Shown: positions 1-22,378 of the stretch, piece after piece | Numbering within the stretch: position 1 is the first letter of the stretch | Layout: each line of letters begins with the position of its first letter | NCBI GenBank assembly: GCA_009760855.2 | Contig: WPIO01000345.1 | Coordinates: forward strand, 1 to 64,000 | Length of the DNA: 64,000 bases | DNA from: Cristatella mucedo | Taxonomy: Eukaryota; Bryozoa; Phylactolaemata; Cristatellidae | Reading direction: 5' to 3' | Position numbers and translations under genes: made by a program | Notes under the pieces: model-generated | What the model was told of the DNA's origin: nothing | Databases searched by the model: none | What the model saw: the letters and a program-made list of their open reading frames with translations, nothing else

Positions 1-81
1 TTCAAATCTGCTCGTCGGAGCGTGTGGTAGCTTGCAGCAGAGTGCTGCACCTTTCTTTAAGCTATTCGCACTTCTATAATT
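1..81 (+). repeat. Partial 12-mer HOR copy at the left edge (tail of M12)
   Basis: This sequence matches the last 81 bp of monomer M12 as seen at 2,976-3,056. The HOR array therefore continues beyond the left end of the window, and its total length cannot be judged here. Confidence 0.95.
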
Positions 82-1570
82 CATTTCGCACGAGTTCGCA
101 GCAGATCGCGGATGATCTACACACTTTAAATCTGCTCGTCGGAGCATGTGGTAGCTTGCAGAAGAGCAATGCAATTCGCTTTAAGCCATTCGCATTTGGA
201 TAACTCATTTCGCACGAGTTGGCAGCAGATCCCCGAATATTGTTACACTGAAAATCTGCCCGTTGGAGCATAAGGTAGCTTGCAGAAAAGTGATGCAATT
301 CGCTTTAAGCCATTCGCATTTGGATAACTCATTTCGCACGTGTTCGCAGCAGATTGTTAAATATCTACACTTTAAATCTGCTTATCGGAGCTTGTGGTAG
401 CTGGCAGCTGAGTGCCGCACATTGTTTTAATCCATTCGCACTTGAATACCTCAGTTCGCACGACTTCGCAGCAGATCGCGGATTATCTACACACTTTAAG
501 TCTCCTTGACACACCGTGCTGTACCTCGCAGCAGAGTGCTGCACCTTCTCTTAGGCTATTCGCAATTGAATAACTCATTTCGTTCGAGTTCGCAGCAGTT
601 CGCGGAATATGTAGACACTTTTAATCTGCTCGTTGGCGCGTGTGAGAGCTGACAGAAGGTTGATGCAATTTGTTTTAAGCCATTTGCACTTGAATAACTC
701 TTTTCGCACGACTTCGCAGCAGATCGTGGAATATCTACCGACTTTCAATCAGCTTGTCGGAACGTGCAGTAGCTGGCAGCTGAGTGCTGCAACTTTGTTT
801 TAGTCCATTCCCACTTAAATAGATCATTTCGCACGAGTTCGCTGTAATTAGCGGAATACTTTTACACTTCAAATTCTCTCGTCGTACCGTGCGGTAGCTT
901 GCAGCAGAGTGCTGCACCTTGTTAAAAGCCATTCGCACTTGACTAACTCATTTCGTACGAGCTAGCAGCTGATCGCAGAATATTTTGAAATTTTAAATCT
1001 GCTCGTAGCAGCGTGCGGTAGCTGGCAGCAGAGTGCTGCACCTATTTTTAGGCCATTCGAACTTGAATATCTCATTTCGCACGAGTTCGCTGCAGATCGC
1101 GGAATATATTCACTATTTAAATCAGCTCGTCGAAGTGTGCGGTCACTTGGTGCAGAATGCTACACCTTGCTTTAAGCAACTTGCACTTCAATGATTCATT
1201 TCGCACGAGTTCGCAGACGATTGCGGAATATTTACAAAATTCTAATCTGCTCGTCAGAGCCTGCGGTAGCTTGGAGCAGAGTGCTACACCTTGCTTGAGG
1301 CCATTCGCACATGAATAGATCATTTCAATCGAGTTCGCAGCAGATCGCGGAATATCTACACGATTCAAACCTGCTCTTGGCAGCATGCGGTAGCTTGCAG
1401 CAGAGTGCTGCACCTTGTTTTAAGCCATTCCCACTTGAAAAAAACTCATTTCGCTCGAGTTGGCAGCAGTTCGCGGCATATGTAGACACTTCAAATCTGC
1501 TCGTCGGAGCGTGTGGTAGCTTGCAGCAGAGTGCTGCACCTTTCTTTAAGCTATTCGCACTTCTATAATT
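82..1570 (+). repeat. 12-mer HOR copy 1 (1,489 bp)
   Basis: Twelve monomers in order M1-M12. It is 3 bp longer than the standard 1,486 bp: one extra T in the AACTTTG run near 785-796 (end of M6) and two extra A in the A-run near 1,438-1,444 (end of M11). I saw no other difference from copy 2. Confidence 0.95.
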
Positions 1571-1694
1571 CATTTCGCACGAGTTCGCAGCAGATCGCGG
1601 ATGATCTACACACTTTAAATCTGCTCGTCGGAGCATGTGGTAGCTTGCAGAAGAGCAATGCAATTCGCTTTAAGCCATTCGCATTTGGATAACT
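1571..1694 (+). repeat. HOR monomer M1
   Basis: Diagnostic bases are GCGGATGATCTAC in the variable block and AGAGCAATGCAATTCG in place of the usual TGCTGCACC block, so the short GCAGCA/TGCTGC dyad is broken. The tail carries GCATTTGGATAAC. It is the second monomer after the distinctive M12 end CTTCTATAATT, which makes the M12/M1 boundary easy to find across the window. Confidence 0.93.
1589..1625. repeat. Inverted repeat AGCAGAT / ATCTGCT inside the monomer (representative, M1)
   Basis: Arms AGCAGAT (1,589-1,595) and ATCTGCT (1,619-1,625) flank a 23-nt spacer that holds the variable block. Allowing a 7-nt bulge in the left side, ACGAG upstream can pair with CTCGT downstream and extend the stem to about 10 pairs. 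The same arms recur in many monomers of the window. Confidence 0.6.
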
Positions 1695-1818
1695 CATTTC
1701 GCACGAGTTGGCAGCAGATCCCCGAATATTGTTACACTGAAAATCTGCCCGTTGGAGCATAAGGTAGCTTGCAGAAAAGTGATGCAATTCGCTTTAAGCC
1801 ATTCGCATTTGGATAACT
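1695..1818 (+). repeat. HOR monomer M2
   Basis: Diagnostic bases are GATCCCCGAATATTG in the variable block, TGCCCGTTGGAGCATAAGG in the core and AAAAGTGATGCAATTCG. Its second half resembles M1, with the same GCATTTGGATAAC tail. The M2 slot is the one lost as an M1/M2 hybrid in the 10-mer variant at 48-57 kb. Confidence 0.93.
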
Positions 1819-1940
1819 CATTTCGCACGTGTTCGCAGCAGATTGTTAAATATCTACACTTTAAATCTGCTTATCGGAGCTTGTGGTAGCTGGCAGCTGA
1901 GTGCCGCACATTGTTTTAATCCATTCGCACTTGAATACCT
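1819..1940 (+). repeat. HOR monomer M3 (122 bp)
   Basis: This is the only 122-bp monomer of the HOR. It has TCTACACTTTAAA where its neighbours have TCTACACACTTTAAA, a loss of one CA. Other diagnostics are GCACGTGTTCGC, GATTGTTAAATATC and GCTGAGTGCCGCACATTG. Confidence 0.93.
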
Positions 1941-2064
1941 CAGTTCGCACGACTTCGCAGCAGATCGCGGATTATCTACACACTTTAAGTCTCCTTGACA
2001 CACCGTGCTGTACCTCGCAGCAGAGTGCTGCACCTTCTCTTAGGCTATTCGCAATTGAATAACT
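1941..2064 (+). repeat. HOR monomer M4
   Basis: The start is CAGTTCGCACGACTTC instead of CATTTCGCACGAGTTC. The core is replaced by AGTCTCCTTGACACACCGTG. The tail has TTCTCTTAGGC and GCAATTGAATAAC. The GCAGCAGAGTGCTGC dyad is intact. The same monomer type marks the boundaries of the 9-monomer blocks in the 20-41 kb superunits. Confidence 0.93.
2017..2031. repeat. Short dyad GCAGCA-GAG-TGCTGC (representative, M4)
   Basis: This is a perfect 6-bp inverted repeat with a 3-nt spacer. It is intact in M4, M7, M8, M11 and M12 of each HOR copy, degraded in the others, and also present in the diverged dimeric family beyond 61.4 kb. It is the element best conserved between the two families. It could be a protein-binding site or hairpin; no function can be read from the sequence. 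Confidence 0.65.
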
Positions 2065-2188
2065 CATTTCGTTCGAGTTCGCAGCAGTTCGCGGAATATG
2101 TAGACACTTTTAATCTGCTCGTTGGCGCGTGTGAGAGCTGACAGAAGGTTGATGCAATTTGTTTTAAGCCATTTGCACTTGAATAACT
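2065..2188 (+). repeat. HOR monomer M5
   Basis: The start is CATTTCGTTCGAG. Other diagnostics are GCAGTTCGCGGAATATGTAG and GTTGGCGCGTGTGAGAGC, followed by GACAGAAGGTTGATGC. The dyad is lost. Confidence 0.93.
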
Positions 2189-2312
2189 CTTTTCGCACGA
2201 CTTCGCAGCAGATCGTGGAATATCTACCGACTTTCAATCAGCTTGTCGGAACGTGCAGTAGCTGGCAGCTGAGTGCTGCAACTTGTTTTAGTCCATTCCC
2301 ACTTAAATAGAT
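2189..2312 (+). repeat. HOR monomer M6
   Basis: The start is CTTTTCGCACGACTTC. Other diagnostics are ATCTACCGACTTTCAATCAG and a GCAGCTGAGTGCTGC variant of the dyad with 5-bp arms. The tail is TTAGTCCATTCCCAC. In copy 1 this monomer has one extra T. Confidence 0.93.
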
Positions 2313-2436
2313 CATTTCGCACGAGTTCGCTGTAATTAGCGGAATACTTTTACACTTCAAATTCTCTCGTCGTACCGTGCGGTAGCTTGCAGCAGAGTGC
2401 TGCACCTTGTTAAAAGCCATTCGCACTTGACTAACT
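2313..2436 (+). repeat. HOR monomer M7
   Basis: The 5' block is GTTCGCTGTAATTAGCGG, where the GCAGCAGAT block is destroyed. The core is TTCTCTCGTCGTACCGTGCG and the tail TTAAAAGCCATTCGC. Nearly the same monomer follows each A-run marker near 22.4, 27.2, 33.8 and 41.8 kb. In the 10-mer variant M7 is fused to M8. Confidence 0.93.
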
Positions 2437-2560
2437 CATTTCGTACGAGCTAGCAGCTGATCGCAGAATATTTTGAAATTTTAAATCTGCTCGTAGCAGC
2501 GTGCGGTAGCTGGCAGCAGAGTGCTGCACCTATTTTTAGGCCATTCGAACTTGAATATCT
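2437..2560 (+). repeat. HOR monomer M8
   Basis: The start is CATTTCGTACGAGCTAGC. Other diagnostics are GCTGATCGCAGAATATTTTG, CTCGTAGCAGCG and CTATTTTTAGGCC. The dyad is intact. Confidence 0.93.
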
Positions 2561-2684
2561 CATTTCGCACGAGTTCGCTGCAGATCGCGGAATATATTCA
2601 CTATTTAAATCAGCTCGTCGAAGTGTGCGGTCACTTGGTGCAGAATGCTACACCTTGCTTTAAGCAACTTGCACTTCAATGATT
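2561..2684 (+). repeat. HOR monomer M9
   Basis: Diagnostics are GCTGCAGATCGCGGAATATA, TCGTCGAAGTGTGCGGTCAC and TTGGTGCAGAATGCTACACC, which breaks the dyad. The tail is AAGCAACTTGCACTTC. Confidence 0.93.
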
Positions 2685-2808
2685 CATTTCGCACGAGTTC
2701 GCAGACGATTGCGGAATATTTACAAAATTCTAATCTGCTCGTCAGAGCCTGCGGTAGCTTGGAGCAGAGTGCTACACCTTGCTTGAGGCCATTCGCACAT
2801 GAATAGAT
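2685..2808 (+). repeat. HOR monomer M10
   Basis: Diagnostics are GTTCGCAGACGATTGCGG, TCGTCAGAGCCTGCGG and GGAGCAGAGTGCTACACC. The tail is GCTTGAGGCC and GCACATGAATAGAT. Confidence 0.93.
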
Positions 2809-2932
2809 CATTTCAATCGAGTTCGCAGCAGATCGCGGAATATCTACACGATTCAAACCTGCTCTTGGCAGCATGCGGTAGCTTGCAGCAGAGTGCTGCA
2901 CCTTGTTTTAAGCCATTCCCACTTGAAAAACT
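2809..2932 (+). repeat. HOR monomer M11
   Basis: The start is CATTTCAATCGAG, followed by ACACGATTCAAACCTGCTC and then TTGGCAGCATGCGG. In ten of eleven HOR copies the base after CTGCTC is T; in the right-edge copy and in related monomers elsewhere it is G. The tail A-run varies by 1-2 nt between copies. The dyad is intact. Confidence 0.93.
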
Positions 2933-3056
2933 CATTTCGCTCGAGTTGGCAGCAGTTCGCGGCATATGTAGACACTTCAAATCTGCTCGTCGGAGCGTGT
3001 GGTAGCTTGCAGCAGAGTGCTGCACCTTTCTTTAAGCTATTCGCACTTCTATAATT
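2933..3056 (+). repeat. HOR monomer M12
   Basis: The start is CATTTCGCTCGAGTTGGC. Other diagnostics are GCGGCATATGTAGACAC and CCTTTCTTTAAGCTATTCGC, ending in CTTCTATAATT. The dyad is intact. The CTATAATT end occurs elsewhere only where M12/M1-type monomers recur, so it is a good phasing marker. Confidence 0.93.
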
Positions 3057-4542
3057 CATTTCGCACGAGTTCGCAGCAGATCGCGGATGATCTACACACT
3101 TTAAATCTGCTCGTCGGAGCATGTGGTAGCTTGCAGAAGAGCAATGCAATTCGCTTTAAGCCATTCGCATTTGGATAACTCATTTCGCACGAGTTGGCAG
3201 CAGATCCCCGAATATTGTTACACTGAAAATCTGCCCGTTGGAGCATAAGGTAGCTTGCAGAAAAGTGATGCAATTCGCTTTAAGCCATTCGCATTTGGAT
3301 AACTCATTTCGCACGTGTTCGCAGCAGATTGTTAAATATCTACACTTTAAATCTGCTTATCGGAGCTTGTGGTAGCTGGCAGCTGAGTGCCGCACATTGT
3401 TTTAATCCATTCGCACTTGAATACCTCAGTTCGCACGACTTCGCAGCAGATCGCGGATTATCTACACACTTTAAGTCTCCTTGACACACCGTGCTGTACC
3501 TCGCAGCAGAGTGCTGCACCTTCTCTTAGGCTATTCGCAATTGAATAACTCATTTCGTTCGAGTTCGCAGCAGTTCGCGGAATATGTAGACACTTTTAAT
3601 CTGCTCGTTGGCGCGTGTGAGAGCTGACAGAAGGTTGATGCAATTTGTTTTAAGCCATTTGCACTTGAATAACTCTTTTCGCACGACTTCGCAGCAGATC
3701 GTGGAATATCTACCGACTTTCAATCAGCTTGTCGGAACGTGCAGTAGCTGGCAGCTGAGTGCTGCAACTTGTTTTAGTCCATTCCCACTTAAATAGATCA
3801 TTTCGCACGAGTTCGCTGTAATTAGCGGAATACTTTTACACTTCAAATTCTCTCGTCGTACCGTGCGGTAGCTTGCAGCAGAGTGCTGCACCTTGTTAAA
3901 AGCCATTCGCACTTGACTAACTCATTTCGTACGAGCTAGCAGCTGATCGCAGAATATTTTGAAATTTTAAATCTGCTCGTAGCAGCGTGCGGTAGCTGGC
4001 AGCAGAGTGCTGCACCTATTTTTAGGCCATTCGAACTTGAATATCTCATTTCGCACGAGTTCGCTGCAGATCGCGGAATATATTCACTATTTAAATCAGC
4101 TCGTCGAAGTGTGCGGTCACTTGGTGCAGAATGCTACACCTTGCTTTAAGCAACTTGCACTTCAATGATTCATTTCGCACGAGTTCGCAGACGATTGCGG
4201 AATATTTACAAAATTCTAATCTGCTCGTCAGAGCCTGCGGTAGCTTGGAGCAGAGTGCTACACCTTGCTTGAGGCCATTCGCACATGAATAGATCATTTC
4301 AATCGAGTTCGCAGCAGATCGCGGAATATCTACACGATTCAAACCTGCTCTTGGCAGCATGCGGTAGCTTGCAGCAGAGTGCTGCACCTTGTTTTAAGCC
4401 ATTCCCACTTGAAAAACTCATTTCGCTCGAGTTGGCAGCAGTTCGCGGCATATGTAGACACTTCAAATCTGCTCGTCGGAGCGTGTGGTAGCTTGCAGCA
4501 GAGTGCTGCACCTTTCTTTAAGCTATTCGCACTTCTATAATT
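3057..4542 (+). repeat. 12-mer HOR copy 3 (1,486 bp)
   Basis: Same order and lengths as copy 2. I saw no difference by eye, and the conceptual translations of its open frames are identical to those of copy 2. Confidence 0.95.
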
Positions 4543-6028
4543 CATTTCGCACGAGTTCGCAGCAGATCGCGGATGATCTACACACTTTAAATCTGCTCGT
4601 CGGAGCATGTGGTAGCTTGCAGAAGAGCAATGCAATTCGCTTTAAGCCATTCGCATTTGGATAACTCATTTCGCACGAGTTGGCAGCAGATCCCCGAATA
4701 TTGTTACACTGAAAATCTGCCCGTTGGAGCATAAGGTAGCTTGCAGAAAAGTGATGCAATTCGCTTTAAGCCATTCGCATTTGGATAACTCATTTCGCAC
4801 GTGTTCGCAGCAGATTGTTAAATATCTACACTTTAAATCTGCTTATCGGAGCTTGTGGTAGCTGGCAGCTGAGTGCCGCACATTGTTTTAATCCATTCGC
4901 ACTTGAATACCTCAGTTCGCACGACTTCGCAGCAGATCGCGGATTATCTACACACTTTAAGTCTCCTTGACACACCGTGCTGTACCTCGCAGCAGAGTGC
5001 TGCACCTTCTCTTAGGCTATTCGCAATTGAATAACTCATTTCGTTCGAGTTCGCAGCAGTTCGCGGAATATGTAGACACTTTTAATCTGCTCGTTGGCGC
5101 GTGTGAGAGCTGACAGAAGGTTGATGCAATTTGTTTTAAGCCATTTGCACTTGAATAACTCTTTTCGCACGACTTCGCAGCAGATCGTGGAATATCTACC
5201 GACTTTCAATCAGCTTGTCGGAACGTGCAGTAGCTGGCAGCTGAGTGCTGCAACTTGTTTTAGTCCATTCCCACTTAAATAGATCATTTCGCACGAGTTC
5301 GCTGTAATTAGCGGAATACTTTTACACTTCAAATTCTCTCGTCGTACCGTGCGGTAGCTTGCAGCAGAGTGCTGCACCTTGTTAAAAGCCATTCGCACTT
5401 GACTAACTCATTTCGTACGAGCTAGCAGCTGATCGCAGAATATTTTGAAATTTTAAATCTGCTCGTAGCAGCGTGCGGTAGCTGGCAGCAGAGTGCTGCA
5501 CCTATTTTTAGGCCATTCGAACTTGAATATCTCATTTCGCACGAGTTCGCTGCAGATCGCGGAATATATTCACTATTTAAATCAGCTCGTCGAAGTGTGC
5601 GGTCACTTGGTGCAGAATGCTACACCTTGCTTTAAGCAACTTGCACTTCAATGATTCATTTCGCACGAGTTCGCAGACGATTGCGGAATATTTACAAAAT
5701 TCTAATCTGCTCGTCAGAGCCTGCGGTAGCTTGGAGCAGAGTGCTACACCTTGCTTGAGGCCATTCGCACATGAATAGATCATTTCAATCGAGTTCGCAG
5801 CAGATCGCGGAATATCTACACGATTCAAACCTGCTCTTGGCAGCATGCGGTAGCTTGCAGCAGAGTGCTGCACCTTGTTTTAAGCCATTCCCACTTGAAA
5901 AACTCATTTCGCTCGAGTTGGCAGCAGTTCGCGGCATATGTAGACACTTCAAATCTGCTCGTCGGAGCGTGTGGTAGCTTGCAGCAGAGTGCTGCACCTT
6001 TCTTTAAGCTATTCGCACTTCTATAATT
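4543..6028 (+). repeat. 12-mer HOR copy 4 (1,486 bp)
   Basis: Same order and lengths as copy 2. I saw no difference by eye. Confidence 0.95.
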
Positions 6029-7515
6029 CATTTCGCACGAGTTCGCAGCAGATCGCGGATGATCTACACACTTTTAAATCTGCTCGTCGGAGCATGTGGT
6101 AGCTTGCAGAAGAGCAATGCAATTCGCTTTAAGCCATTCGCATTTGGATAACTCATTTCGCACGAGTTGGCAGCAGATCCCCGAATATTGTTACACTGAA
6201 AATCTGCCCGTTGGAGCATAAGGTAGCTTGCAGAAAAGTGATGCAATTCGCTTTAAGCCATTCGCATTTGGATAACTCATTTCGCACGTGTTCGCAGCAG
6301 ATTGTTAAATATCTACACTTTAAATCTGCTTATCGGAGCTTGTGGTAGCTGGCAGCTGAGTGCCGCACATTGTTTTAATCCATTCGCACTTGAATACCTC
6401 AGTTCGCACGACTTCGCAGCAGATCGCGGATTATCTACACACTTTAAGTCTCCTTGACACACCGTGCTGTACCTCGCAGCAGAGTGCTGCACCTTCTCTT
6501 AGGCTATTCGCAATTGAATAACTCATTTCGTTCGAGTTCGCAGCAGTTCGCGGAATATGTAGACACTTTTAATCTGCTCGTTGGCGCGTGTGAGAGCTGA
6601 CAGAAGGTTGATGCAATTTGTTTTAAGCCATTTGCACTTGAATAACTCTTTTCGCACGACTTCGCAGCAGATCGTGGAATATCTACCGACTTTCAATCAG
6701 CTTGTCGGAACGTGCAGTAGCTGGCAGCTGAGTGCTGCAACTTGTTTTAGTCCATTCCCACTTAAATAGATCATTTCGCACGAGTTCGCTGTAATTAGCG
6801 GAATACTTTTACACTTCAAATTCTCTCGTCGTACCGTGCGGTAGCTTGCAGCAGAGTGCTGCACCTTGTTAAAAGCCATTCGCACTTGACTAACTCATTT
6901 CGTACGAGCTAGCAGCTGATCGCAGAATATTTTGAAATTTTAAATCTGCTCGTAGCAGCGTGCGGTAGCTGGCAGCAGAGTGCTGCACCTATTTTTAGGC
7001 CATTCGAACTTGAATATCTCATTTCGCACGAGTTCGCTGCAGATCGCGGAATATATTCACTATTTAAATCAGCTCGTCGAAGTGTGCGGTCACTTGGTGC
7101 AGAATGCTACACCTTGCTTTAAGCAACTTGCACTTCAATGATTCATTTCGCACGAGTTCGCAGACGATTGCGGAATATTTACAAAATTCTAATCTGCTCG
7201 TCAGAGCCTGCGGTAGCTTGGAGCAGAGTGCTACACCTTGCTTGAGGCCATTCGCACATGAATAGATCATTTCAATCGAGTTCGCAGCAGATCGCGGAAT
7301 ATCTACACGATTCAAACCTGCTCTTGGCAGCATGCGGTAGCTTGCAGCAGAGTGCTGCACCTTGTTTTAAGCCATTCCCACTTGAAAAACTCATTTCGCT
7401 CGAGTTGGCAGCAGTTCGCGGCATATGTAGACACTTCAAATCTGCTCGTCGGAGCGTGTGGTAGCTTGCAGCAGAGTGCTGCACCTTTCTTTAAGCTATT
7501 CGCACTTCTATAATT
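6029..7515 (+). repeat. 12-mer HOR copy 5 (1,487 bp)
   Basis: It has one extra T in M1 (CACTTTTAAATC near 6,070-6,075) relative to copy 2. Otherwise it has the same monomer order. Confidence 0.95.
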
Positions 7516-9001
7516 CATTTCGCACGAGTTCGCAGCAGATCGCGGATGATCTACACACTTTAAATCTGCTCGTCGGAGCATGTGGTAGCTTGCAGAAGAG
7601 CAATGCAATTCGCTTTAAGCCATTCGCATTTGGATAACTCATTTCGCACGAGTTGGCAGCAGATCCCCGAATATTGTTACACTGAAAATCTGCCCGTTGG
7701 AGCATAAGGTAGCTTGCAGAAAAGTGATGCAATTCGCTTTAAGCCATTCGCATTTGGATAACTCATTTCGCACGTGTTCGCAGCAGATTGTTAAATATCT
7801 ACACTTTAAATCTGCTTATCGGAGCTTGTGGTAGCTGGCAGCTGAGTGCCGCACATTGTTTTAATCCATTCGCACTTGAATACCTCAGTTCGCACGACTT
7901 CGCAGCAGATCGCGGATTATCTACACACTTTAAGTCTCCTTGACACACCGTGCTGTACCTCGCAGCAGAGTGCTGCACCTTCTCTTAGGCTATTCGCAAT
8001 TGAATAACTCATTTCGTTCGAGTTCGCAGCAGTTCGCGGAATATGTAGACACTTTTAATCTGCTCGTTGGCGCGTGTGAGAGCTGACAGAAGGTTGATGC
8101 AATTTGTTTTAAGCCATTTGCACTTGAATAACTCTTTTCGCACGACTTCGCAGCAGATCGTGGAATATCTACCGACTTTCAATCAGCTTGTCGGAACGTG
8201 CAGTAGCTGGCAGCTGAGTGCTGCAACTTGTTTTAGTCCATTCCCACTTAAATAGATCATTTCGCACGAGTTCGCTGTAATTAGCGGAATACTTTTACAC
8301 TTCAAATTCTCTCGTCGTACCGTGCGGTAGCTTGCAGCAGAGTGCTGCACCTTGTTAAAAGCCATTCGCACTTGACTAACTCATTTCGTACGAGCTAGCA
8401 GCTGATCGCAGAATATTTTGAAATTTTAAATCTGCTCGTAGCAGCGTGCGGTAGCTGGCAGCAGAGTGCTGCACCTATTTTTAGGCCATTCGAACTTGAA
8501 TATCTCATTTCGCACGAGTTCGCTGCAGATCGCGGAATATATTCACTATTTAAATCAGCTCGTCGAAGTGTGCGGTCACTTGGTGCAGAATGCTACACCT
8601 TGCTTTAAGCAACTTGCACTTCAATGATTCATTTCGCACGAGTTCGCAGACGATTGCGGAATATTTACAAAATTCTAATCTGCTCGTCAGAGCCTGCGGT
8701 AGCTTGGAGCAGAGTGCTACACCTTGCTTGAGGCCATTCGCACATGAATAGATCATTTCAATCGAGTTCGCAGCAGATCGCGGAATATCTACACGATTCA
8801 AACCTGCTCTTGGCAGCATGCGGTAGCTTGCAGCAGAGTGCTGCACCTTGTTTTAAGCCATTCCCACTTGAAAAACTCATTTCGCTCGAGTTGGCAGCAG
8901 TTCGCGGCATATGTAGACACTTCAAATCTGCTCGTCGGAGCGTGTGGTAGCTTGCAGCAGAGTGCTGCACCTTTCTTTAAGCTATTCGCACTTCTATAAT
9001 T
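7516..9001 (+). repeat. 12-mer HOR copy 6 (1,486 bp)
   Basis: Same order and lengths as copy 2. I saw no difference by eye. Confidence 0.95.
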
Positions 9002-10488
9002 CATTTCGCACGAGTTCGCAGCAGATCGCGGATGATCTACACACTTTAAATCTGCTCGTCGGAGCATGTGGTAGCTTGCAGAAGAGCAATGCAATTCGCT
9101 TTAAGCCATTCGCATTTGGATAACTCATTTCGCACGAGTTGGCAGCAGATCCCCGAATATTGTTACACTGAAAATCTGCCCGTTGGAGCATAAGGTAGCT
9201 TGCAGAAAAGTGATGCAATTCGCTTTAAGCCATTCGCATTTGGATAACTCATTTCGCACGTGTTCGCAGCAGATTGTTAAATATCTACACTTTAAATCTG
9301 CTTATCGGAGCTTGTGGTAGCTGGCAGCTGAGTGCCGCACATTGTTTTTAATCCATTCGCACTTGAATACCTCAGTTCGCACGACTTCGCAGCAGATCGC
9401 GGATTATCTACACACTTTAAGTCTCCTTGACACACCGTGCTGTACCTCGCAGCAGAGTGCTGCACCTTCTCTTAGGCTATTCGCAATTGAATAACTCATT
9501 TCGTTCGAGTTCGCAGCAGTTCGCGGAATATGTAGACACTTTTAATCTGCTCGTTGGCGCGTGTGAGAGCTGACAGAAGGTTGATGCAATTTGTTTTAAG
9601 CCATTTGCACTTGAATAACTCTTTTCGCACGACTTCGCAGCAGATCGTGGAATATCTACCGACTTTCAATCAGCTTGTCGGAACGTGCAGTAGCTGGCAG
9701 CTGAGTGCTGCAACTTGTTTTAGTCCATTCCCACTTAAATAGATCATTTCGCACGAGTTCGCTGTAATTAGCGGAATACTTTTACACTTCAAATTCTCTC
9801 GTCGTACCGTGCGGTAGCTTGCAGCAGAGTGCTGCACCTTGTTAAAAGCCATTCGCACTTGACTAACTCATTTCGTACGAGCTAGCAGCTGATCGCAGAA
9901 TATTTTGAAATTTTAAATCTGCTCGTAGCAGCGTGCGGTAGCTGGCAGCAGAGTGCTGCACCTATTTTTAGGCCATTCGAACTTGAATATCTCATTTCGC
10001 ACGAGTTCGCTGCAGATCGCGGAATATATTCACTATTTAAATCAGCTCGTCGAAGTGTGCGGTCACTTGGTGCAGAATGCTACACCTTGCTTTAAGCAAC
10101 TTGCACTTCAATGATTCATTTCGCACGAGTTCGCAGACGATTGCGGAATATTTACAAAATTCTAATCTGCTCGTCAGAGCCTGCGGTAGCTTGGAGCAGA
10201 GTGCTACACCTTGCTTGAGGCCATTCGCACATGAATAGATCATTTCAATCGAGTTCGCAGCAGATCGCGGAATATCTACACGATTCAAACCTGCTCTTGG
10301 CAGCATGCGGTAGCTTGCAGCAGAGTGCTGCACCTTGTTTTAAGCCATTCCCACTTGAAAAACTCATTTCGCTCGAGTTGGCAGCAGTTCGCGGCATATG
10401 TAGACACTTCAAATCTGCTCGTCGGAGCGTGTGGTAGCTTGCAGCAGAGTGCTGCACCTTTCTTTAAGCTATTCGCACTTCTATAATT
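9002..10488 (+). repeat. 12-mer HOR copy 7 (1,487 bp)
   Basis: It has one extra T in M3 (ATTGTTTTTAATCC near 9,342-9,355). Otherwise it is as copy 2. Confidence 0.95.
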
Positions 10489-11975
10489 CATTTCGCACGA
10501 GTTCGCAGCAGATCGCGGATGATCTACACACTTTAAATCTGCTCGTCGGAGCATGTGGTAGCTTGCAGAAGAGCAATGCAATTCGCTTTAAGCCATTCGC
10601 ATTTGGATAACTCATTTCGCACGAGTTGGCAGCAGATCCCCGAATATTGTTACACTGAAAATCTGCCCGTTGGAGCATAAGGTAGCTTGCAGAAAAGTGA
10701 TGCAATTCGCTTTAAGCCATTCGCATTTGGATAACTCATTTCGCACGTGTTCGCAGCAGATTGTTAAATATCTACACTTTAAATCTGCTTATCGGAGCTT
10801 GTGGTAGCTGGCAGCTGAGTGCCGCACATTGTTTTAATCCATTCGCACTTGAATACCTCAGTTCGCACGACTTCGCAGCAGATCGCGGATTATCTACACA
10901 CTTTAAGTCTCCTTGACACACCGTGCTGTACCTCGCAGCAGAGTGCTGCACCTTCTCTTAGGCTATTCGCAATTGAATAACTCATTTCGTTCGAGTTCGC
11001 AGCAGTTCGCGGAATATGTAGACACTTTTAATCTGCTCGTTGGCGCGTGTGAGAGCTGACAGAAGGTTGATGCAATTTGTTTTAAGCCATTTGCACTTGA
11101 ATAACTCTTTTCGCACGACTTCGCAGCAGATCGTGGAATATCTACCGACTTTCAATCAGCTTGTCGGAACGTGCAGTAGCTGGCAGCTGAGTGCTGCAAC
11201 TTGTTTTAGTCCATTCCCACTTAAATAGATCATTTCGCACGAGTTCGCTGTAATTAGCGGAATACTTTTACACTTCAAATTCTCTCGTCGTACCGTGCGG
11301 TAGCTTGCAGCAGAGTGCTGCACCTTGTTAAAAGCCATTCGCACTTGACTAACTCATTTCGTACGAGCTAGCAGCTGATCGCAGAATATTTTGAAATTTT
11401 AAATCTGCTCGTAGCAGCGTGCGGTAGCTGGCAGCAGAGTGCTGCACCTATTTTTAGGCCATTCGAACTTGAATATCTCATTTCGCACGAGTTCGCTGCA
11501 GATCGCGGAATATATTCACTATTTAAATCAGCTCGTCGAAGTGTGCGGTCACTTGGTGCAGAATGCTACACCTTGCTTTAAGCAACTTGCACTTCAATGA
11601 TTCATTTCGCACGAGTTCGCAGACGATTGCGGAATATTTACAAAATTCTAATCTGCTCGTCAGAGCCTGCGGTAGCTTGGAGCAGAGTGCTACACCTTGC
11701 TTGAGGCCATTCGCACATGAATAGATCATTTCAATCGAGTTCGCAGCAGATCGCGGAATATCTACACGATTCAAACCTGCTCTTGGCAGCATGCGGTAGC
11801 TTGCAGCAGAGTGCTGCACCTTGTTTTAAGCCATTCCCACTTGAAAAAACTCATTTCGCTCGAGTTGGCAGCAGTTCGCGGCATATGTAGACACTTCAAA
11901 TCTGCTCGTCGGAGCGTGTGGTAGCTTGCAGCAGAGTGCTGCACCTTTCTTTAAGCTATTCGCACTTCTATAATT
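10489..11975 (+). repeat. 12-mer HOR copy 8 (1,487 bp)
   Basis: It has one extra A in the A-run at the end of M11 (near 11,843-11,848), the same run that is two A longer in copy 1. Otherwise it is as copy 2. Confidence 0.95.
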
Positions 11976-13461
11976 CATTTCGCACGAGTTCGCAGCAGAT
12001 CGCGGATGATCTACACACTTTAAATCTGCTCGTCGGAGCATGTGGTAGCTTGCAGAAGAGCAATGCAATTCGCTTTAAGCCATTCGCATTTGGATAACTC
12101 ATTTCGCACGAGTTGGCAGCAGATCCCCGAATATTGTTACACTGAAAATCTGCCCGTTGGAGCATAAGGTAGCTTGCAGAAAAGTGATGCAATTCGCTTT
12201 AAGCCATTCGCATTTGGATAACTCATTTCGCACGTGTTCGCAGCAGATTGTTAAATATCTACACTTTAAATCTGCTTATCGGAGCTTGTGGTAGCTGGCA
12301 GCTGAGTGCCGCACATTGTTTTAATCCATTCGCACTTGAATACCTCAGTTCGCACGACTTCGCAGCAGATCGCGGATTATCTACACACTTTAAGTCTCCT
12401 TGACACACCGTGCTGTACCTCGCAGCAGAGTGCTGCACCTTCTCTTAGGCTATTCGCAATTGAATAACTCATTTCGTTCGAGTTCGCAGCAGTTCGCGGA
12501 ATATGTAGACACTTTTAATCTGCTCGTTGGCGCGTGTGAGAGCTGACAGAAGGTTGATGCAATTTGTTTTAAGCCATTTGCACTTGAATAACTCTTTTCG
12601 CACGACTTCGCAGCAGATCGTGGAATATCTACCGACTTTCAATCAGCTTGTCGGAACGTGCAGTAGCTGGCAGCTGAGTGCTGCAACTTGTTTTAGTCCA
12701 TTCCCACTTAAATAGATCATTTCGCACGAGTTCGCTGTAATTAGCGGAATACTTTTACACTTCAAATTCTCTCGTCGTACCGTGCGGTAGCTTGCAGCAG
12801 AGTGCTGCACCTTGTTAAAAGCCATTCGCACTTGACTAACTCATTTCGTACGAGCTAGCAGCTGATCGCAGAATATTTTGAAATTTTAAATCTGCTCGTA
12901 GCAGCGTGCGGTAGCTGGCAGCAGAGTGCTGCACCTATTTTTAGGCCATTCGAACTTGAATATCTCATTTCGCACGAGTTCGCTGCAGATCGCGGAATAT
13001 ATTCACTATTTAAATCAGCTCGTCGAAGTGTGCGGTCACTTGGTGCAGAATGCTACACCTTGCTTTAAGCAACTTGCACTTCAATGATTCATTTCGCACG
13101 AGTTCGCAGACGATTGCGGAATATTTACAAAATTCTAATCTGCTCGTCAGAGCCTGCGGTAGCTTGGAGCAGAGTGCTACACCTTGCTTGAGGCCATTCG
13201 CACATGAATAGATCATTTCAATCGAGTTCGCAGCAGATCGCGGAATATCTACACGATTCAAACCTGCTCTTGGCAGCATGCGGTAGCTTGCAGCAGAGTG
13301 CTGCACCTTGTTTTAAGCCATTCCCACTTGAAAAACTCATTTCGCTCGAGTTGGCAGCAGTTCGCGGCATATGTAGACACTTCAAATCTGCTCGTCGGAG
13401 CGTGTGGTAGCTTGCAGCAGAGTGCTGCACCTTTCTTTAAGCTATTCGCACTTCTATAATT
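11976..13461 (+). repeat. 12-mer HOR copy 9 (1,486 bp)
   Basis: Same order and lengths as copy 2. I saw no difference by eye. Confidence 0.95.
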
Positions 13462-14947
13462 CATTTCGCACGAGTTCGCAGCAGATCGCGGATGATCTAC
13501 ACACTTTAAATCTGCTCGTCGGAGCATGTGGTAGCTTGCAGAAGAGCAATGCAATTCGCTTTAAGCCATTCGCATTTGGATAACTCATTTCGCACGAGTT
13601 GGCAGCAGATCCCCGAATATTGTTACACTGAAAATCTGCCCGTTGGAGCATAAGGTAGCTTGCAGAAAAGTGATGCAATTCGCTTTAAGCCATTCGCATT
13701 TGGATAACTCATTTCGCACGTGTTCGCAGCAGATTGTTAAATATCTACACTTTAAATCTGCTTATCGGAGCTTGTGGTAGCTGGCAGCTGAGTGCCGCAC
13801 ATTGTTTTAATCCATTCGCACTTGAATACCTCAGTTCGCACGACTTCGCAGCAGATCGCGGATTATCTACACACTTTAAGTCTCCTTGACACACCGTGCT
13901 GTACCTCGCAGCAGAGTGCTGCACCTTCTCTTAGGCTATTCGCAATTGAATAACTCATTTCGTTCGAGTTCGCAGCAGTTCGCGGAATATGTAGACACTT
14001 TTAATCTGCTCGTTGGCGCGTGTGAGAGCTGACAGAAGGTTGATGCAATTTGTTTTAAGCCATTTGCACTTGAATAACTCTTTTCGCACGACTTCGCAGC
14101 AGATCGTGGAATATCTACCGACTTTCAATCAGCTTGTCGGAACGTGCAGTAGCTGGCAGCTGAGTGCTGCAACTTGTTTTAGTCCATTCCCACTTAAATA
14201 GATCATTTCGCACGAGTTCGCTGTAATTAGCGGAATACTTTTACACTTCAAATTCTCTCGTCGTACCGTGCGGTAGCTTGCAGCAGAGTGCTGCACCTTG
14301 TTAAAAGCCATTCGCACTTGACTAACTCATTTCGTACGAGCTAGCAGCTGATCGCAGAATATTTTGAAATTTTAAATCTGCTCGTAGCAGCGTGCGGTAG
14401 CTGGCAGCAGAGTGCTGCACCTATTTTTAGGCCATTCGAACTTGAATATCTCATTTCGCACGAGTTCGCTGCAGATCGCGGAATATATTCACTATTTAAA
14501 TCAGCTCGTCGAAGTGTGCGGTCACTTGGTGCAGAATGCTACACCTTGCTTTAAGCAACTTGCACTTCAATGATTCATTTCGCACGAGTTCGCAGACGAT
14601 TGCGGAATATTTACAAAATTCTAATCTGCTCGTCAGAGCCTGCGGTAGCTTGGAGCAGAGTGCTACACCTTGCTTGAGGCCATTCGCACATGAATAGATC
14701 ATTTCAATCGAGTTCGCAGCAGATCGCGGAATATCTACACGATTCAAACCTGCTCTTGGCAGCATGCGGTAGCTTGCAGCAGAGTGCTGCACCTTGTTTT
14801 AAGCCATTCCCACTTGAAAAACTCATTTCGCTCGAGTTGGCAGCAGTTCGCGGCATATGTAGACACTTCAAATCTGCTCGTCGGAGCGTGTGGTAGCTTG
14901 CAGCAGAGTGCTGCACCTTTCTTTAAGCTATTCGCACTTCTATAATT
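13462..14947 (+). repeat. 12-mer HOR copy 10 (1,486 bp)
   Basis: Same order and lengths as copy 2. I saw no difference by eye. Confidence 0.95.
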
Positions 14948-16433
14948 CATTTCGCACGAGTTCGCAGCAGATCGCGGATGATCTACACACTTTAAATCTG
15001 CTCGTCGGAGCATGTGGTAGCTTGCAGAAGAGCAATGCAATTCGCTTTAAGCCATTCGCATTTGGATAACTCATTTCGCACGAGTTGGCAGCAGATCCCC
15101 GAATATTGTTACACTGAAAATCTGCCCGTTGGAGCATAAGGTAGCTTGCAGAAAAGTGATGCAATTCGCTTTAAGCCATTCGCATTTGGATAACTCATTT
15201 CGCACGTGTTCGCAGCAGATTGTTAAATATCTACACTTTAAATCTGCTTATCGGAGCTTGTGGTAGCTGGCAGCTGAGTGCCGCACATTGTTTTAATCCA
15301 TTCGCACTTGAATACCTCAGTTCGCACGACTTCGCAGCAGATCGCGGATTATCTACACACTTTAAGTCTCCTTGACACACCGTGCTGTACCTCGCAGCAG
15401 AGTGCTGCACCTTCTCTTAGGCTATTCGCAATTGAATAACTCATTTCGTTCGAGTTCGCAGCAGTTCGCGGAATATGTAGACACTTTTAATCTGCTCGTT
15501 GGCGCGTGTGAGAGCTGACAGAAGGTTGATGCAATTTGTTTTAAGCCATTTGCACTTGAATAACTCTTTTCGCACGACTTCGCAGCAGATCGTGGAATAT
15601 CTACCGACTTTCAATCAGCTTGTCGGAACGTGCAGTAGCTGGCAGCTGAGTGCTGCAACTTGTTTTAGTCCATTCCCACTTAAATAGATCATTTCGCACG
15701 AGTTCGCTGTAATTAGCGGAATACTTTTACACTTCAAATTCTCTCGTCGTACCGTGCGGTAGCTTGCAGCAGAGTGCTGCACCTTGTTAAAAGCCATTCG
15801 CACTTGACTAACTCATTTCGTACGAGCTAGCAGCTGATCGCAGAATATTTTGAAATTTTAAATCTGCTCGTAGCAGCGTGCGGTAGCTGGCAGCAGAGTG
15901 CTGCACCTATTTTTAGGCCATTCGAACTTGAATATCTCATTTCGCACGAGTTCGCTGCAGATCGCGGAATATATTCACTATTTAAATCAGCTCGTCGAAG
16001 TGTGCGGTCACTTGGTGCAGAATGCTACACCTTGCTTTAAGCAACTTGCACTTCAATGATTCATTTCGCACGAGTTCGCAGACGATTGCGGAATATTTAC
16101 AAAATTCTAATCTGCTCGTCAGAGCCTGCGGTAGCTTGGAGCAGAGTGCTACACCTTGCTTGAGGCCATTCGCACATGAATAGATCATTTCAATCGAGTT
16201 CGCAGCAGATCGCGGAATATCTACACGATTCAAACCTGCTCGTGGCAGCATGCGGTAGCTTGCAGCAGAGTGCTGCACCTTGTTTTAAGCCATTCCCACT
16301 TGAAAAACTCATTTCGCTCGAGTTGGCAGCAGTTCGCGGCATATGTAGACACTTCAAATCTGCTCGTCGGAGCGTGTGGTAGCTTGCAGCAGAGTGCTGC
16401 ACCTTTCTTTAAGCTATTCGCACTTCTATAATT
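14948..16433 (+). repeat. 12-mer HOR copy 11 (1,486 bp), right-edge copy
   Basis: Full-length and in order. It carries G at 16,242 in M11 (CTCGTGGCAGC) where the ten copies to its left have T. G is also the state in the related M11-type monomers at about 19.1, 22.9, 42.3 and 49.1 kb, so this edge copy keeps what looks like the ancestral base. Confidence 0.95.
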
Positions 16434-17181
16434 CATTTCGCACGAGTTCGCAGCAGATCGCGGATGATCTACACACTTTAAATCTGCTCGTCGGAGCATG
16501 TGGTAGCTTGCAGAAGAGCAATGCAATTCGCTTTAAGCCATTCGCATTTGGATAACTCATTTCGCACGAGTTGGCAGCAGATCCCCGAATATTGTTACAC
16601 TGAAAATCTGCCCGTTGGAGCATAAGGTAGCTTGCAGAAAAGTGATGCAATTCGCTTTAAGCCATTCGCATTTGGATAACTCATTTCGCACGTGTTCGCA
16701 GCCGATTGCGGAATATCTAGAAACTTCAAATCTGCTTATCGGAGCTTGTGGTAGCAGGCAGCTGAGTGCCGCAGATTGTTTTAATCCATTCGCACTTGAA
16801 TACCTCAGTTCGCACGACTTCGCAGCAGATCGCAGATTATCTACACACTTTAAGTCTCCTTGACACACCGTGCTGTACCTCGCAGCAGAGTGGCTGCACC
16901 TTCTTTTAGGCTATTCGCACTTCTATAATTCATTTCGCACGAGTTCGCAGCAGTTCGCGGAATATGTAGACACTTCAAATCTGCTCGTTCGCAGTGTGTG
17001 AGAGCTGGTGCAGAGTGTTGATGCAATTTGTTTTAAGCCATTTGCACTTGAATAATTCGTTTCGCACGACTTTGCAGCAGATTGTGGAACATTTACCGAC
17101 TTTCAATCAGCTCGTCGGAAGCGTGCAGTAGCTGGCAGCTGAGTGCTGCAATTTGTTTTAGTCCATTCCACTTAAATAGAT
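16434..17181 (+). repeat. Decaying right edge of the 12-mer HOR array
   Basis: M1 (16,434-16,557) and M2 (16,558-16,681) are intact. M3 (from 16,682) is chimeric: after GTGTTCGCAGC it switches to a CGATTGCGGAATATCTAGAAA variable block like that near 17,572, then returns to M3-like sequence. The M4, M5 and M6 slots (about 16,805, 16,931 and 17,058) still follow HOR order, but they are diverged and slightly lengthened (126 and 127 bp for M4 and M5). M4 ends with the CTTCTATAATT tail normally found on M12. At 17,182 the M7 slot holds a different monomer type and HOR order ends. Confidence 0.85.
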
Positions 17182-19288
17182 CACTTCGCACGAGTTCGCA
17201 GCAGATCGTGAAATATCTACACACTTTAAATTTGCTTATTGGAGCGTGCGGCAGCTGGCAGCGTAGTGCCACACCTTGTTTTAAGCCATTCGTTCTTGAA
17301 TACCTCATTTCGCACGACTTCGCAGCAGATCGTGGATTATCTACACACTTTAAATCTTCTTGACAAACCGCACTGTAGCTGGCAGCAGAGTGCTGCACCT
17401 TCTCTTAGGCTATTCGCAATTGAATAACTCATTTCGTTCGAGTTCGCAGCAGATCCCCGAATATTGTTACACTGAAAATCTGCCCGTTGGAGCGTGTGGT
17501 AGCAGGCAGCAGAGTGATGCAATTTGTTTTAAGCTCCGTGCACTTAAATAACTCATTTCGCAAGACCTCGCAGCCGATCGCGGAATATCTAGAAACTTCA
17601 AATCCCCTTGTCGCAGCGTGCAGTAGCAGGCAGCAGACTGATGCAAATTGATTTAAGCCATTCGCACTTGAATTACTCATTTCGCACGAGCTGGCAGCAG
17701 ATCGCAGAATACCTGGACACTTCATATCTGCTCGTCGCAGCGAGCAATAGCTGGCAGCAGAGTGGTTTAATTTAGTTTAAGCCATTCGAACTTGAATAAC
17801 TCATTTCGTACGAGTTCGCAGAAGATCGCGGAATATTTCCTCGCTTCCAATCAGCTCGTCGCAGTGTGAGGTCGCTGGGTGCAGAGTACTGCACCTTGCT
17901 TCAAGCAACTTGCACTTCAATAATTCGTTTAGCACGAGTTCGCGGCAGATTGCGGACCATTTACACACTTTTAATCAGCTCGTCGGAGCATGCGGTAACT
18001 TGCAGGAGAGTGATGCAATTTTTTTTAAACCATTCGAACTTGAATGACTCATTTCGCACGAGTTCGCAGCAGATCGTAGAATATCTACAAACTTTAAATC
18101 TGCTTATTGGAGAGTGCGGCAGCTGGCAGTTGAGTGCCACATCTTGTTTTAAGCCATTCGTTCTTGAATACCTCATTTCGCACGACTTCGCAGCAGATCG
18201 TGGATTATCTACACACTTTAAATCTTCTTGACAAACCGCACTGTAGCTGGCAGCAGAGTGCTGCACCTTCTCTTAGGCTATTCGCAATTGAATAACTCAT
18301 TTCTTTCGAGTTCGCAGCATTTCGCAGAATATGTAGACACTTTTTATCTGCTCGTCGGAGCGTGTGAGTGCTGACAAAAGGTTGATGAATTTTGTTTTAA
18401 GCCATTAGCACTTGAATAACTCTTTTCGCACGACTTCGCAGCAGATCGTGGAATATCTACAGACTTTCAATCAGCTTGTTGGAACGTGCAGTAGTTGGCA
18501 GCTGAGTGCTGCACCTTGTTTTAGTCCATTCGCACTTAAATAGGTCATTTCGCACAAGTTCGCTGCAGCTTGCTGAATATTTTACACTTCAAATCTGCTT
18601 GTCGTACCGTGCGGTAGCTGGCAGCAGAGTACTGCACCTTGTTAAAAGCCTTTCGCACTTGACTAACTCATTTCGTACGAGCTAGCAGCTGATCGCCAAA
18701 TATCTAGAAATATCGAATCTGCTCGTCGCCGCGTGCAGTAGCTGGCAGCACAGTGCTGCACCTTTTTTTAGGCCATTCGAACTTGAATGACTCATTTCGC
18801 ACGAGTTCGCAGCAGATCGCGGAATATTTTCATACTTCAAATCAGCCCGTCGCAGTGTGAGATCGCTGGGTGCAGAGTACTGCACCTTGCTTCAAGCAAC
18901 TTGCACTTCAATAATTCGTTTAGCACGAGTTCGCGGCAGATTGCGGAATATTTACACACTTTTAATCAGCTCGTCGGAGCATGCGGTAGCTTGCAGGAGA
19001 GTGCTGCACCTTCCTTGAGGCCATTCGCACATGAATAGATCATTTTAATCGAGTTCGCAGCAGATCGCGGAATATCTACACGATTCAAACCTGCTCGTGG
19101 CAACATGCAGTAGCTGGCAGCAGAGTGCTGCACCTTGTTTTAAGCCATTTGCAATTGAAAAACTCCTGTCGCTCGATTTGGCAGCAGTTCGCGGAAATGG
19201 TATACACTTCAAATCTGCTCGTCGGAGCGTGCGGTAGCTGGCAGCAGAGTGCTGCACCTTTCTTTAAGCTATTCGCACTTCTATAATT
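17182..19288 (+). repeat. Diverged monomer block, about 17 monomers
   Basis: These are single monomers of mixed type without a local HOR period. Several are collinear with 53.7-55.5 kb at an offset of about 36.3 kb. For example, the GATCCCCGAATATTG monomer near 17,450 corresponds to the one near 53,790, and the type spanning 18,682-18,885 corresponds to 55,014-55,217. Just before 19,289 lie M11- and M12-like monomers ending in CTTCTATAATT. Confidence 0.85.
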
Positions 19289-19799: not shown

Positions 19800-22370
19800 C
19801 AGCAGATCGCAGATTCTCTGCACACTTTAAATCGTCTCGTCGGAGCGTGAGGCAGCTGGCAGCAGAGTGCTGCACCGGGTTTACAGCCATTCGAACTTAA
19901 TTAACTCATTTCGGACGAGTTAGCCGCGGATAGCGGAAAATTTTCATACTTCAAGTCAGCTCTTCCAAGCTTGCTGTAGCTGGCAGCCGAGTACAGCATC
20001 TTGTTTTATGCCACTCACACTTCAATAATTCATTTCGCTCGAGTTCGCAGCAGATCGCGGAATATCTAGACACTTTAAGTCATCTTCTCCCATCGTGCAG
20101 TAGCTGGGAGCAGAGTGATTTATTTGTTTTACGCCAGTCGCACTTGATTAACTCCTTTCGCACAAGTTCGAAGCAGATCGCAGATTATCTACACACTTTT
20201 TATTTGCTCCTGGCAGCGAGCAGTCTCTGGCAGCACAGTGCTGCACCTAGCACTAAGCCATTCACCCTTGAATAACTCATTTCGTACGAGTTCGCAGCAG
20301 TTTGCGGAATATGTAGACACTTTTAATCTGCTCGTCGGAGCATGCTGTACCTAGCAGCAGAGTGATGCAATTTGTTTTAAGCCGTTCGCACTTGAATAGC
20401 TCATTTCGCACGAGCTGGCAGCAGATCGCGGAATACCTAGACACTTTAAATCTGCTCATCGCAGCGTGCAATAGCTGGCAGCAGAGTGGTTTAATTTAGT
20501 TTAAGCCATTCGAATTTGAATAAGTCATTTCGTACGAGTTCGCAGCAGATCGCGGAATATTTTCACACTTCAAATCAGCTCGTCGTAGTGGGAGGTCGCT
20601 GAGTGCAGAGAGCTGCATCTTGCTTTAAGCAACTTGCACTTCAATAATTCGTTCCGCACGAGTTTGCAGCAGATTTCGGAACATTTACACACTTTTAATC
20701 AGCTCATCGGAGCATGCGGTAACTTGCAGAAGAGTGATGCAATTTTTTTTAAACCATTCGAACTTGAATGACTTATTTCGCTCGAGTTCGCAGCAGATCG
20801 CGGAATATCTACACACTCTAAATCTGCTTATTGGAGCCTGCGGCAGCTGGCAGCTGAGTGTAACACCTTGTTTTAAGCCATTCGTTCTTGAATACCTCAT
20901 TTCGCACGACTTCGCAGCAGATCGCGGATTATCTACACACTTTAAATCTCCCTGACACACCGTGCTGTAGCTCGCAGCAGAGTGCTGCACCTTCTTTTAG
21001 GCTAATCGCAATTGAAAAACTCATTTCGTTCGAGTTCGCAGCAGTTCGCGGAATATATAGACACTTTTAATCCGCTCGTCGGAACGTGTGAAAGCTGGCA
21101 GAAGAGTGATGCAATTTGTTTTAAGCTATTACCACTTGAATAACCCTATTCGCACGACTTTGCAGCAGATCTTGGAATATCTACAGACTTTAAATCAGCT
21201 TGTCGGAACGTGTAGTAGCTCGCAGCTGAGTGCTGCACCTTGTTTTTAAGCCATTTGCACTTAAACTGATCATTTCGCACGAGTTCGCTGCAGATCGAAG
21301 GAAAATTTCACACTTCAAATCTGCTCGTCGTACCGTGCGGTAGCTGGCAGCAGAGTGCTGCACCATGTTAAAAGCCATTAGCACTTAACTAATTCATTTC
21401 GTACGAGCTATCAGCTGATCGCGGAAAATCTAGAAACTTCAAATCTGCTCGACGCAGCGTGCGGTAGCTGGCAGCAGAGTGCTGCACCTTGTTTTAAGCC
21501 ATTCGCCCTGGAATGACTCATTTTGCACGAGTTTGCAGCAGATCGCTGAATACCTAGAAACTTCAAATCTGCTCGTCGCAGCGTGCAATAGCTGGCAGCA
21601 GAGTGGTGCAATTCGGTTTAGGTTAATCGCTTTTGAATAACCTATTTCGAACGAGTTCGCAGCAGATTGCGGATTCTCTACACACTTTAAATCTGCTTCT
21701 CGGAGCGTGCAGCAGCTAGATGCAGGGTGCTGCACCTAGTTTTGAGCAATTCGAACCTTAATAACTCATTTCGGACGAGTTCGCCGCTGATAGCGGAATA
21801 TTTTCACAGTTCAAATCATCTCGTCGCAGTTTGCTGCAGCTAGCTGCAGAGTACTGCACCCTTCTTTAAGCCACTTGCACTTTAATTATTCATTCCGCAC
21901 GAGTTCCTAGCGGATTGCAGGATATCTAAGCACTTTTACTTTGCTCGTCGGAGCGTGCATAGCTGGCAGCAGAGTGATGCAATTTTTTTTAAGCCATCCG
22001 CACTTGAATAACTCCTTTCGCACGAGTTCGCAGCAGATCGCAGATTATCTACACACTTTAAATCTCCTTGACACACCGTGCCGTAGCTCGCAGCAGAGTG
22101 CTGCACCTTATTTTAGGCTATTCGCAATTGAGTAACTCATTTTGTTCGAGTTCACAGCATTTCTCGGAATATGTAGACACTTTTTATCTGCTTGTCGGAG
22201 CGTGTGAGAGCTGGTAGAAGAGTGATGCAATTTATTTTAAGCCATTAGCACTTGAATAACTCTTTTCGCACGACTTCCCAGCAGATCGTGGACCTTCAAC
22301 AGACTTTCAACCAGCTTGTCGGAACGTGCAGTAGCTGGCAGCTGAGTGCTGCACCTTGTTTTAGTTCATT
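19800..22370 (+). repeat. Partial superunit U0
   Basis: From the GCAGATTCTCTGCACAC monomer near 19,810 onward, the order matches 24,640-27,211 at an offset near 4,838 bp, and also 57,610-60,190. It includes one 9-monomer block (20,946-22,061). To its left the match to U1 stops, so this is a truncated superunit at the left boundary of that array. Confidence 0.85.
20946..22061 (+). repeat. 9-monomer block, single copy in U0 (1,116 bp)
   Basis: It runs from one M4-like monomer with ATCTCCCTGACAC to the next with ATCTCCTTGACAC, exactly 9 x 124 bp. The same block is single-copy in U1 and near 58.8-59.9 kb, and multi-copy in U2 and U3. Confidence 0.85.
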
Positions 22371-22378
22371 CGCACCTT

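Follow-up and report, generated by a model that had tools for sequence, protein, structure and literature searches.

Candidate parents of a young twelve-monomer HOR in the same 124-bp satellite array of Cristatella mucedo

Introduction

The start of an HOR is usually hidden because the founder sequence has been erased, and a locus in which a newly multiplied unit lies beside older relatives raises the question of where the new unit came from. The DNA analysed here, the first 64,000 nucleotides of contig WPIO01000345.1 from the bryozoan Cristatella mucedo (referred to throughout as the window), is almost wholly one satellite with a 124-bp monomer, and its left end carries a block of near-identical twelve-monomer units followed by ~45 kb of older satellite. 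Candidate parents of the unit and the joints between them (the head of monomer M3 and the M7/M8 joint) share the array with the new block, so that a model of in-register recombination can be checked from one locus. The reading favored below, with a probability of roughly 0.7, is that older arrangements recombined in register to give the unit, which was then amplified in tandem very recently, most likely within a centromeric or pericentromeric array.

The young twelve-monomer block

Eleven full tandem copies of a 1,486-bp, twelve-monomer unit (M1 to M12) occupy positions 1-16,352 of the forward strand, as delimited by shift identity, BLASTN, monomer identity and copy alignment; the left side is cut by the window edge. 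Shift identity within 1-16,433 peaks at 124, 1486, 2973, 4459 and 5946, i.e. at the monomer length and at multiples of ~1,486, with no other dominant period. The copies start at 1, 1490, 2976, 4462, 5948, 7435, 8921, 10408, 11895, 13381 and 14867, a spacing of 1486-1489. The first-pass annotation had described eleven copies that share twelve monomer types in the same order, and all eleven do so at a threshold of 0.94; its contrast between near-identical copies and strongly diverged monomers within a copy is equally well borne out. Monomers in the same slot are 0.9996 (99.96%) identical, with a minimum of 0.984 over 660 pairs, as against a mean of 0.759 (75.9%) and a maximum of 0.847 for monomers in different slots. 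The copies of the unit are thus far more alike than the monomers inside it, the feature by which an HOR is recognized, and this contrast supports the proposed HOR amplification.

Differences among the copies are few. When copy 1 is compared with each of the remaining ten by BLASTN, identity is 99.7-99.9% and mismatches are absent apart from one in copy 11. The alignment of all eleven has six variable columns. One holds the sole substitution, a T-to-G change confined to copy 11; the other five are indel columns, all in runs of T or A and carried by copies 1, 5, 7 and 8. Copies 1 and 11 accordingly differ by one substitution in 1,486 positions. The length of the unit is set by M3 (249-370, forward strand, in the first copy), which is 122 bp in all eleven copies (12 x 124 - 2 = 1486). 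This had been correctly noted, but the short form is not peculiar to the twelve-mer and must predate it, since flank relatives at 48,095, 51,188 and 52,444, and also at 55,540 and 56,778, already have 122 bp.

The right end of the block was previously placed at 16,433, which is too early, as exact identity to the unit reaches 16,702. A partial twelfth copy at 16,353-16,702 (forward strand), made up of complete M1 and M2 monomers plus the initial 102 columns of M3, is a 350-bp exact run identical to copy 11. The monomer at this edge, M3* (16,601-16,724, forward strand), equals young M3 over columns 0-101 and then continues in a tail like that of type 5, a group of nine flank monomers: its seven mismatches to M3 all lie past columns 0-101, and six type-5 monomers come within one mismatch of the tail, none of them exactly. 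Judged from this flank comparison, M3* is a further M3/type-5 joint and would mark a second switch at the block edge. At the other side the array runs off the window, and eleven copies are therefore a minimum.

Older layers of the array

TRF reports a period of 124 over 4-61,463 (495.8 copies), and cyclic alignment of the window yields 517 monomer rows, of which 401 have a length of exactly 124 bp. The older part of the array (16,725-61,463, forward strand; TRF, cyclic alignment and clustering) consists mostly of longer HORs rather than of plain monomeric satellite. Up to 61.4 kb no listed monomer falls below a match of 0.77 to the consensus, and the extremes of length among them are a gain of 18 bp (142 bp, at 52,054) and a loss of 14 bp (110 bp, at 47,985); since no monomer has gained more than 18 bp, it is probable that no mobile element is inserted there. 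Megablast with 24-base words at E 1e-30 found no minus-strand self match in the 64 kb, and no closed ORF in the window reaches 250 aa. The rightmost part (61,464-64,000, forward strand; TRF and cyclic alignment) also belongs to the satellite but is much more diverged than the rest and repeats as a 248-bp dimer. As a look for a methylation signature, transitions per site were counted among 39 flank clusters; they amount to 0.085 at CG, 0.033 at CHG, 0.057 at CHH and 0.033 at A/T sites, with no CHG excess, and CpG observed/expected is 1.09-1.15.

Average linkage clustering of all 517 monomers at 8% distance gave 95 types, 49 of them single, many of the flank types being absent from the twelve-mer. 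Over monomers 136-488 the commonest successor of a type was correct for 273 of the 315 steps that join repeated types, as compared with a fraction of 0.20 on average and 0.23 at most in 500 shuffles. Runs of monomers matching at 0.92 or more define several periods: 39 monomers at an offset of 53 (identity 0.996; 10 substitutions in 4,834), 22 at an offset of 43 (0.992; 14 in 2,723), 19 at an offset of 55 (0.997; 4 in 2,356), 24 at an offset of 35 (0.985; 45 in 2,971) and 26 at an offset of 39 (0.972; 81 in 3,225). By run matching and substitution counts, a long-period layer with offsets of 43, 53, 55 and 96 monomers and differences of ~0.2-0.5% in substitutions extends over about 22,928-41,059 (forward strand). 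A layer with a 35-monomer, 4,349-bp period, differing by ~1.5% in substitutions over its 24-monomer run, extends over about 48,095-57,147 (forward strand) and includes older runs M3'-M7 and the order M9-M12-M1.

The description of the left block as young holds against this background: one substitution among its eleven copies contrasts with 10/4,834, 45/2,971 and 81/3,225 in the flank layers. Having the fewest substitutions, the block is the latest of several amplification rounds. Younger and older layers are observed on the one side that lies within the window, and their ages do not form a smooth gradient.

Setting of the array

The window most likely samples a centromeric or pericentromeric array, of which the young block would be the youngest layer in view, an assignment that is plausible and drawn by analogy. 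It is favored because the youngest, homogeneous HOR adjoins older HORs, as in the layout of human centromeres described in PMC12321929, where the youngest and most homogeneous HOR has older HORs at its flanks; layered expansion is described for Papaver as well (PMC11406182). The serious competitor, held to be the less probable one, is that the HOR is real and belongs to a non-centromeric satellite, e.g. subtelomeric or interstitial heterochromatic, that has no role in segregation and is maintained by unequal exchange alone; HORs can form in such satellites too. The CENP-B box core, TTCGNNNNANNCGGG, has no exact match in the window, a result that fits the non-centromeric alternative. Matches within two mismatches number 130 against an expected 102.4 (sd 9.7), a count reached by one of 100 shuffles and a weak signal in a repeat array.

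Periodicity near 10 bp also lends something to the non-centromeric alternative: power in the consensus is not significant for GC (p 0.41), WW (p 0.12) or SS (p 0.53), and many centromeric satellites are reported with WW periodicity in PMC12321929. Nucleosome positioning from a 10-bp period is accordingly not claimed. Base identity of the consensus at shifts of 10, 20 and so on to 60 is nevertheless 0.325 as against 0.245 in shuffles (p 0.0007), and reaches the same level in the diverged dimer part. The 124-bp monomer may have a decamer origin.

Against a non-centromeric location stand the homogeneous young HOR beside older ones and the lack of any large insertion up to 61.4 kb, both of which resemble centromere cores, together with short dyads, such as GCAGCAGAGTGCTGC in the satellite consensus. 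Perfect dyads with arms of 6, overlaps counted, number 101 in 1-16,433 against 61.4 (sd 8.5) in 20 shuffles, and 280 in 16,434-61,463 against 163.7 (sd 13.7); since copies of one motif are not independent, repetition inflates the contrast and the excess is weaker than it appears. The dimer part has 12 against 8.5 (sd 4.1), which is not significant. A centromeric or pericentromeric setting remains the preferred reading.

Candidate parents of the twelve-mer

Pieces from which the unit could have been assembled are likely present in the older flank, where two partial versions of its cycle are found. Lineage (i) has the order M3' M4 M5 M6 M7 M9 M10 M11 M12 M1, without M8. At 48,095-49,332 it is followed by M2', and at 51,188-53,681 (forward strand) the ten monomers occur twice as a tandem pair with 11 substitutions in 1,238 and no M2' between the units, a close relative of the twelve-mer order. 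Lineage (ii), at 22,305 and 41,678, has the order M7 M8 M9 M10 M11 M12 M1 M2'. Young M7 recurs unchanged in lineage (i), at 48,588, 51,682 and 52,938, sites that lack M8, and young M8 recurs unchanged in lineage (ii), at 22,432.

M3 is a chimera of a type-5 head (columns 0-15) and an older M3 body, as seen in the comparison with flank monomers and, at a switch penalty of 4, in a copying model. Exact matches to its columns 0-15 are found in seven flank monomers, every one of type 5; the remaining two type-5 monomers show one and two mismatches there; over the other 108 columns type 5 differs from M3 by 25-30 mismatches. The six monomers of the older M3 type show the converse, with 5-6 mismatches in columns 0-15 and 3-7 in the other 108. 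Moreover older M2 is followed by type 5 in all eight flank cases. If the pattern is defined as a nearest own head with at least 5 mismatches, an own body with at most 7 and an exact foreign head, it occurs in M3 only, one of the twelve slots, the nearest own-type head of the remaining eleven being 0 or 1 mismatch away, and in none of the 332 flank monomers that have a same-type partner. On a plain reading of these comparisons, M3 would be an in-register crossover between the monomer that follows M2 and an older M3, by which the cycle is closed from M2 to M3.

The copying model treats the unit as copied from 353 flank monomers that serve as templates, at a switch penalty of 4 or 8. A penalty of 4 gives five segments, with switches at M3 columns 15/16, M7 78/79, M10 93/94 and M12 97/98; at a penalty of 8 there are three, the M3 and M12 switches vanishing, that in M7 staying and that in M10 moving to 65/66. 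The nearest template from M3 column 16 to M7 column 78 lies at 52,444-53,061 (forward strand; 12 mismatches in 559 columns), and that from M7 column 79 to M10 column 93 is the older run M7-M8-M9-M10 at 22,305-22,803 (forward strand; 2 in 387). As a control, 57 flank stretches of twelve monomers were each copied from the remaining flank at a penalty of 4 and needed one segment (22 stretches), two (19), three (6), four (5), five (3) or six (2). With 5 of 57 needing at least five, the unit stands toward the upper end of this range without being unique, and the number of segments is not special by itself. The nearest templates lie ~6-37 kb from the young block and do not follow a smooth gradient of age, which speaks against the favored origin, as far as the one visible side goes.

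Formation of the unit

The favored reading would then comprise two joining events, whose order and direction we infer. In one, the head of type 5, the normal successor of M2, would have been joined to an older M3 body to close the twelve-unit cycle; in the other, M8 and its neighbors from the second lineage (as at 22,305-22,803) would have been placed beside M3-M7 (as at 52,444-53,061). Tandem multiplication of the new twelve-mer would have followed very recently, whether through out-of-register exchange or through break-induced replication. The same marks are expected of both in this array and the two are inseparable here; break-induced replication is a route that has been tested elsewhere, changes in HOR copy number being reported in PMC11034957 to require RAD52 and PIF1 in an ALT-positive human cell line. 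The order containing M8 could also be ancestral, with absence of M8 representing a loss. A stronger version can be put forward only tentatively: that the birth of a centromeric HOR has been captured, with two older lineages and the joining monomer within 60 kb, and that template switching inside in-register monomers, not amplification of a pre-existing unit, created the new HOR.

If instead the twelve-mer were ancestral, the longer flank HORs would be its rearranged descendants and the left block would owe its uniformity to gene conversion. Pieces of the cycle do occur in the flank in the same order, as this would require, but the M3 head is of type 5, and older M2 is succeeded by type 5 in every flank case, so that the M2-M3 joint looks derived, and the flank holds many monomer types that the twelve-mer lacks; an ancestral twelve-mer is consequently unlikely. 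Slighter still is the chance that the near identity of the copies is partly an assembly artefact, with a different true copy number or a copy repeated by the assembler: near-identical copies are where assemblies err, five of the six variable columns are T- or A-run indels, and one of eight flank comparisons has more indel events than substitutions (15 against 10), a pattern that read error could produce. Against an artefact, the variants are patchy (copies 1, 5, 7, 8 and 11, i.e. 5 of 11), the block passes cleanly into a related monomer at its 16,702 edge, and divergence is graded among the longer flank HORs. Recombination between older arrangements, followed by amplification, is retained as the probable origin of the block.

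Comparison with known systems

Searches with the satellite produced no named family in the collections and papers covered, which says little on whether the family has already been described. Exact scans of genome contigs and viral contigs with a 29-mer and a 20-mer, words that occur 6 and 60 times on the forward strand of the window, gave no matches; one unit searched by BLASTN against plasmids and phages gave none at 1e-5; Rfam at gathering thresholds (4227 families) gave none; and a literature search with consensus words returned nothing related by title.

Several satellites share the number 124. The one centromeric 124-bp satellite met in the literature searched is Lusy1, the holocentromeric satellite of Luzula sylvatica, for which short dyad symmetries are likewise reported in PMC11538461; its published FISH oligo, the part of Lusy1 that was compared, matches the window no better than its own shuffles, 83 of 100 of which score as high. 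RproSat03-124 of Rhodnius prolixus also has a 124-bp monomer and is set apart by composition, at 62.1% A+T (PMC8199985) versus about 54% for most of the window. The "124 bp" given for Tribolium madens measures a chimeric transition element rather than a monomer. Macro-dyad arrays of the Tribolium type have inverted subarrays, whereas megablast found no minus-strand self match, and hence no such subarrays, here.

In comparison with human alpha satellite, whose monomer is about 171 bp, the likeness is one of features; the 124-bp period and the absence of an exact CENP-B box, which differs from alpha-type satellite with that box, are consistent with the unrelated satellite family proposed in the first-pass annotation. 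Local homogenisation is likewise described for Arabidopsis CEN180, although HORs there are mostly of 2 or 3 monomers, as opposed to 12 and 35-53 here (PMC12321929), and layered expansion is common to this array and to the cenSats of Papaver as described in PMC11406182. HORs, long HORs and layered arrays are already known kinds: on human chromosome 21 there are a 52mer with two copies and a 23/25mer HOR, of which the 25mer is cascading (PMC12385485). With human alpha-satellite HORs the array shares units built of diverged monomers, copies of the unit that are near-identical, length variants that come from repeated monomer types, and layered ages (PMC12385485, PMC12321929); to such systems it adds one in which HORs of 12, 35 and 43/53 monomers are nested in a 124-bp satellite.

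Older flank of the satellite array

The nearest templates of the young block (1-16,702; eleven copies of the 12-monomer, 1,486-bp HOR and a partial twelfth), that is, the flank monomers best matching its segments in the copying model, lie ~6-37 kb away. Yet in the neighbouring stretch (16849-17844) single types, represented by one member only, account for five of the eight monomers at the 0.94 threshold.

Within the long-period layer of the flank, where HOR offsets reach tens of monomers, 38080-41059 is a further tandem duplication of 12 monomers, its two copies differing by 8 substitutions in 1,487 bp. Its monomer types mostly differ from those of the young 12-mer; only E (the M5 type) is common to both. 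Two 39-monomer runs at the 53-monomer offset (26153-37580) differ by 15 indel events and 10 substitutions, the only one of eight flank comparisons in which indel events outnumber substitutions; this excess possibly reflects homopolymer read errors. The monomer at 52054-52195 carries an 18-bp tandem duplication (52,170-52,207) and is 142 bp long, versus 124 bp for the M11-type monomers at 48,961 and 53,310.

Divergent right end and internal periodicity

At 61464-64000 the same satellite is abruptly far more diverged and has a 248-bp dimer period, with a GC content of 0.507 over 62,001-64,000; words resembling CTCGGTATATCGAG and CTCGGAATATCGAG appear, as judged by eye, to be repeated within this region. 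Across 1-64000 the monomer displays an internal 10-bp periodicity (shifts 10 to 60), equally strong in the diverged dimer part and the young block, and a decamer ancestry of the satellite monomer is possible.
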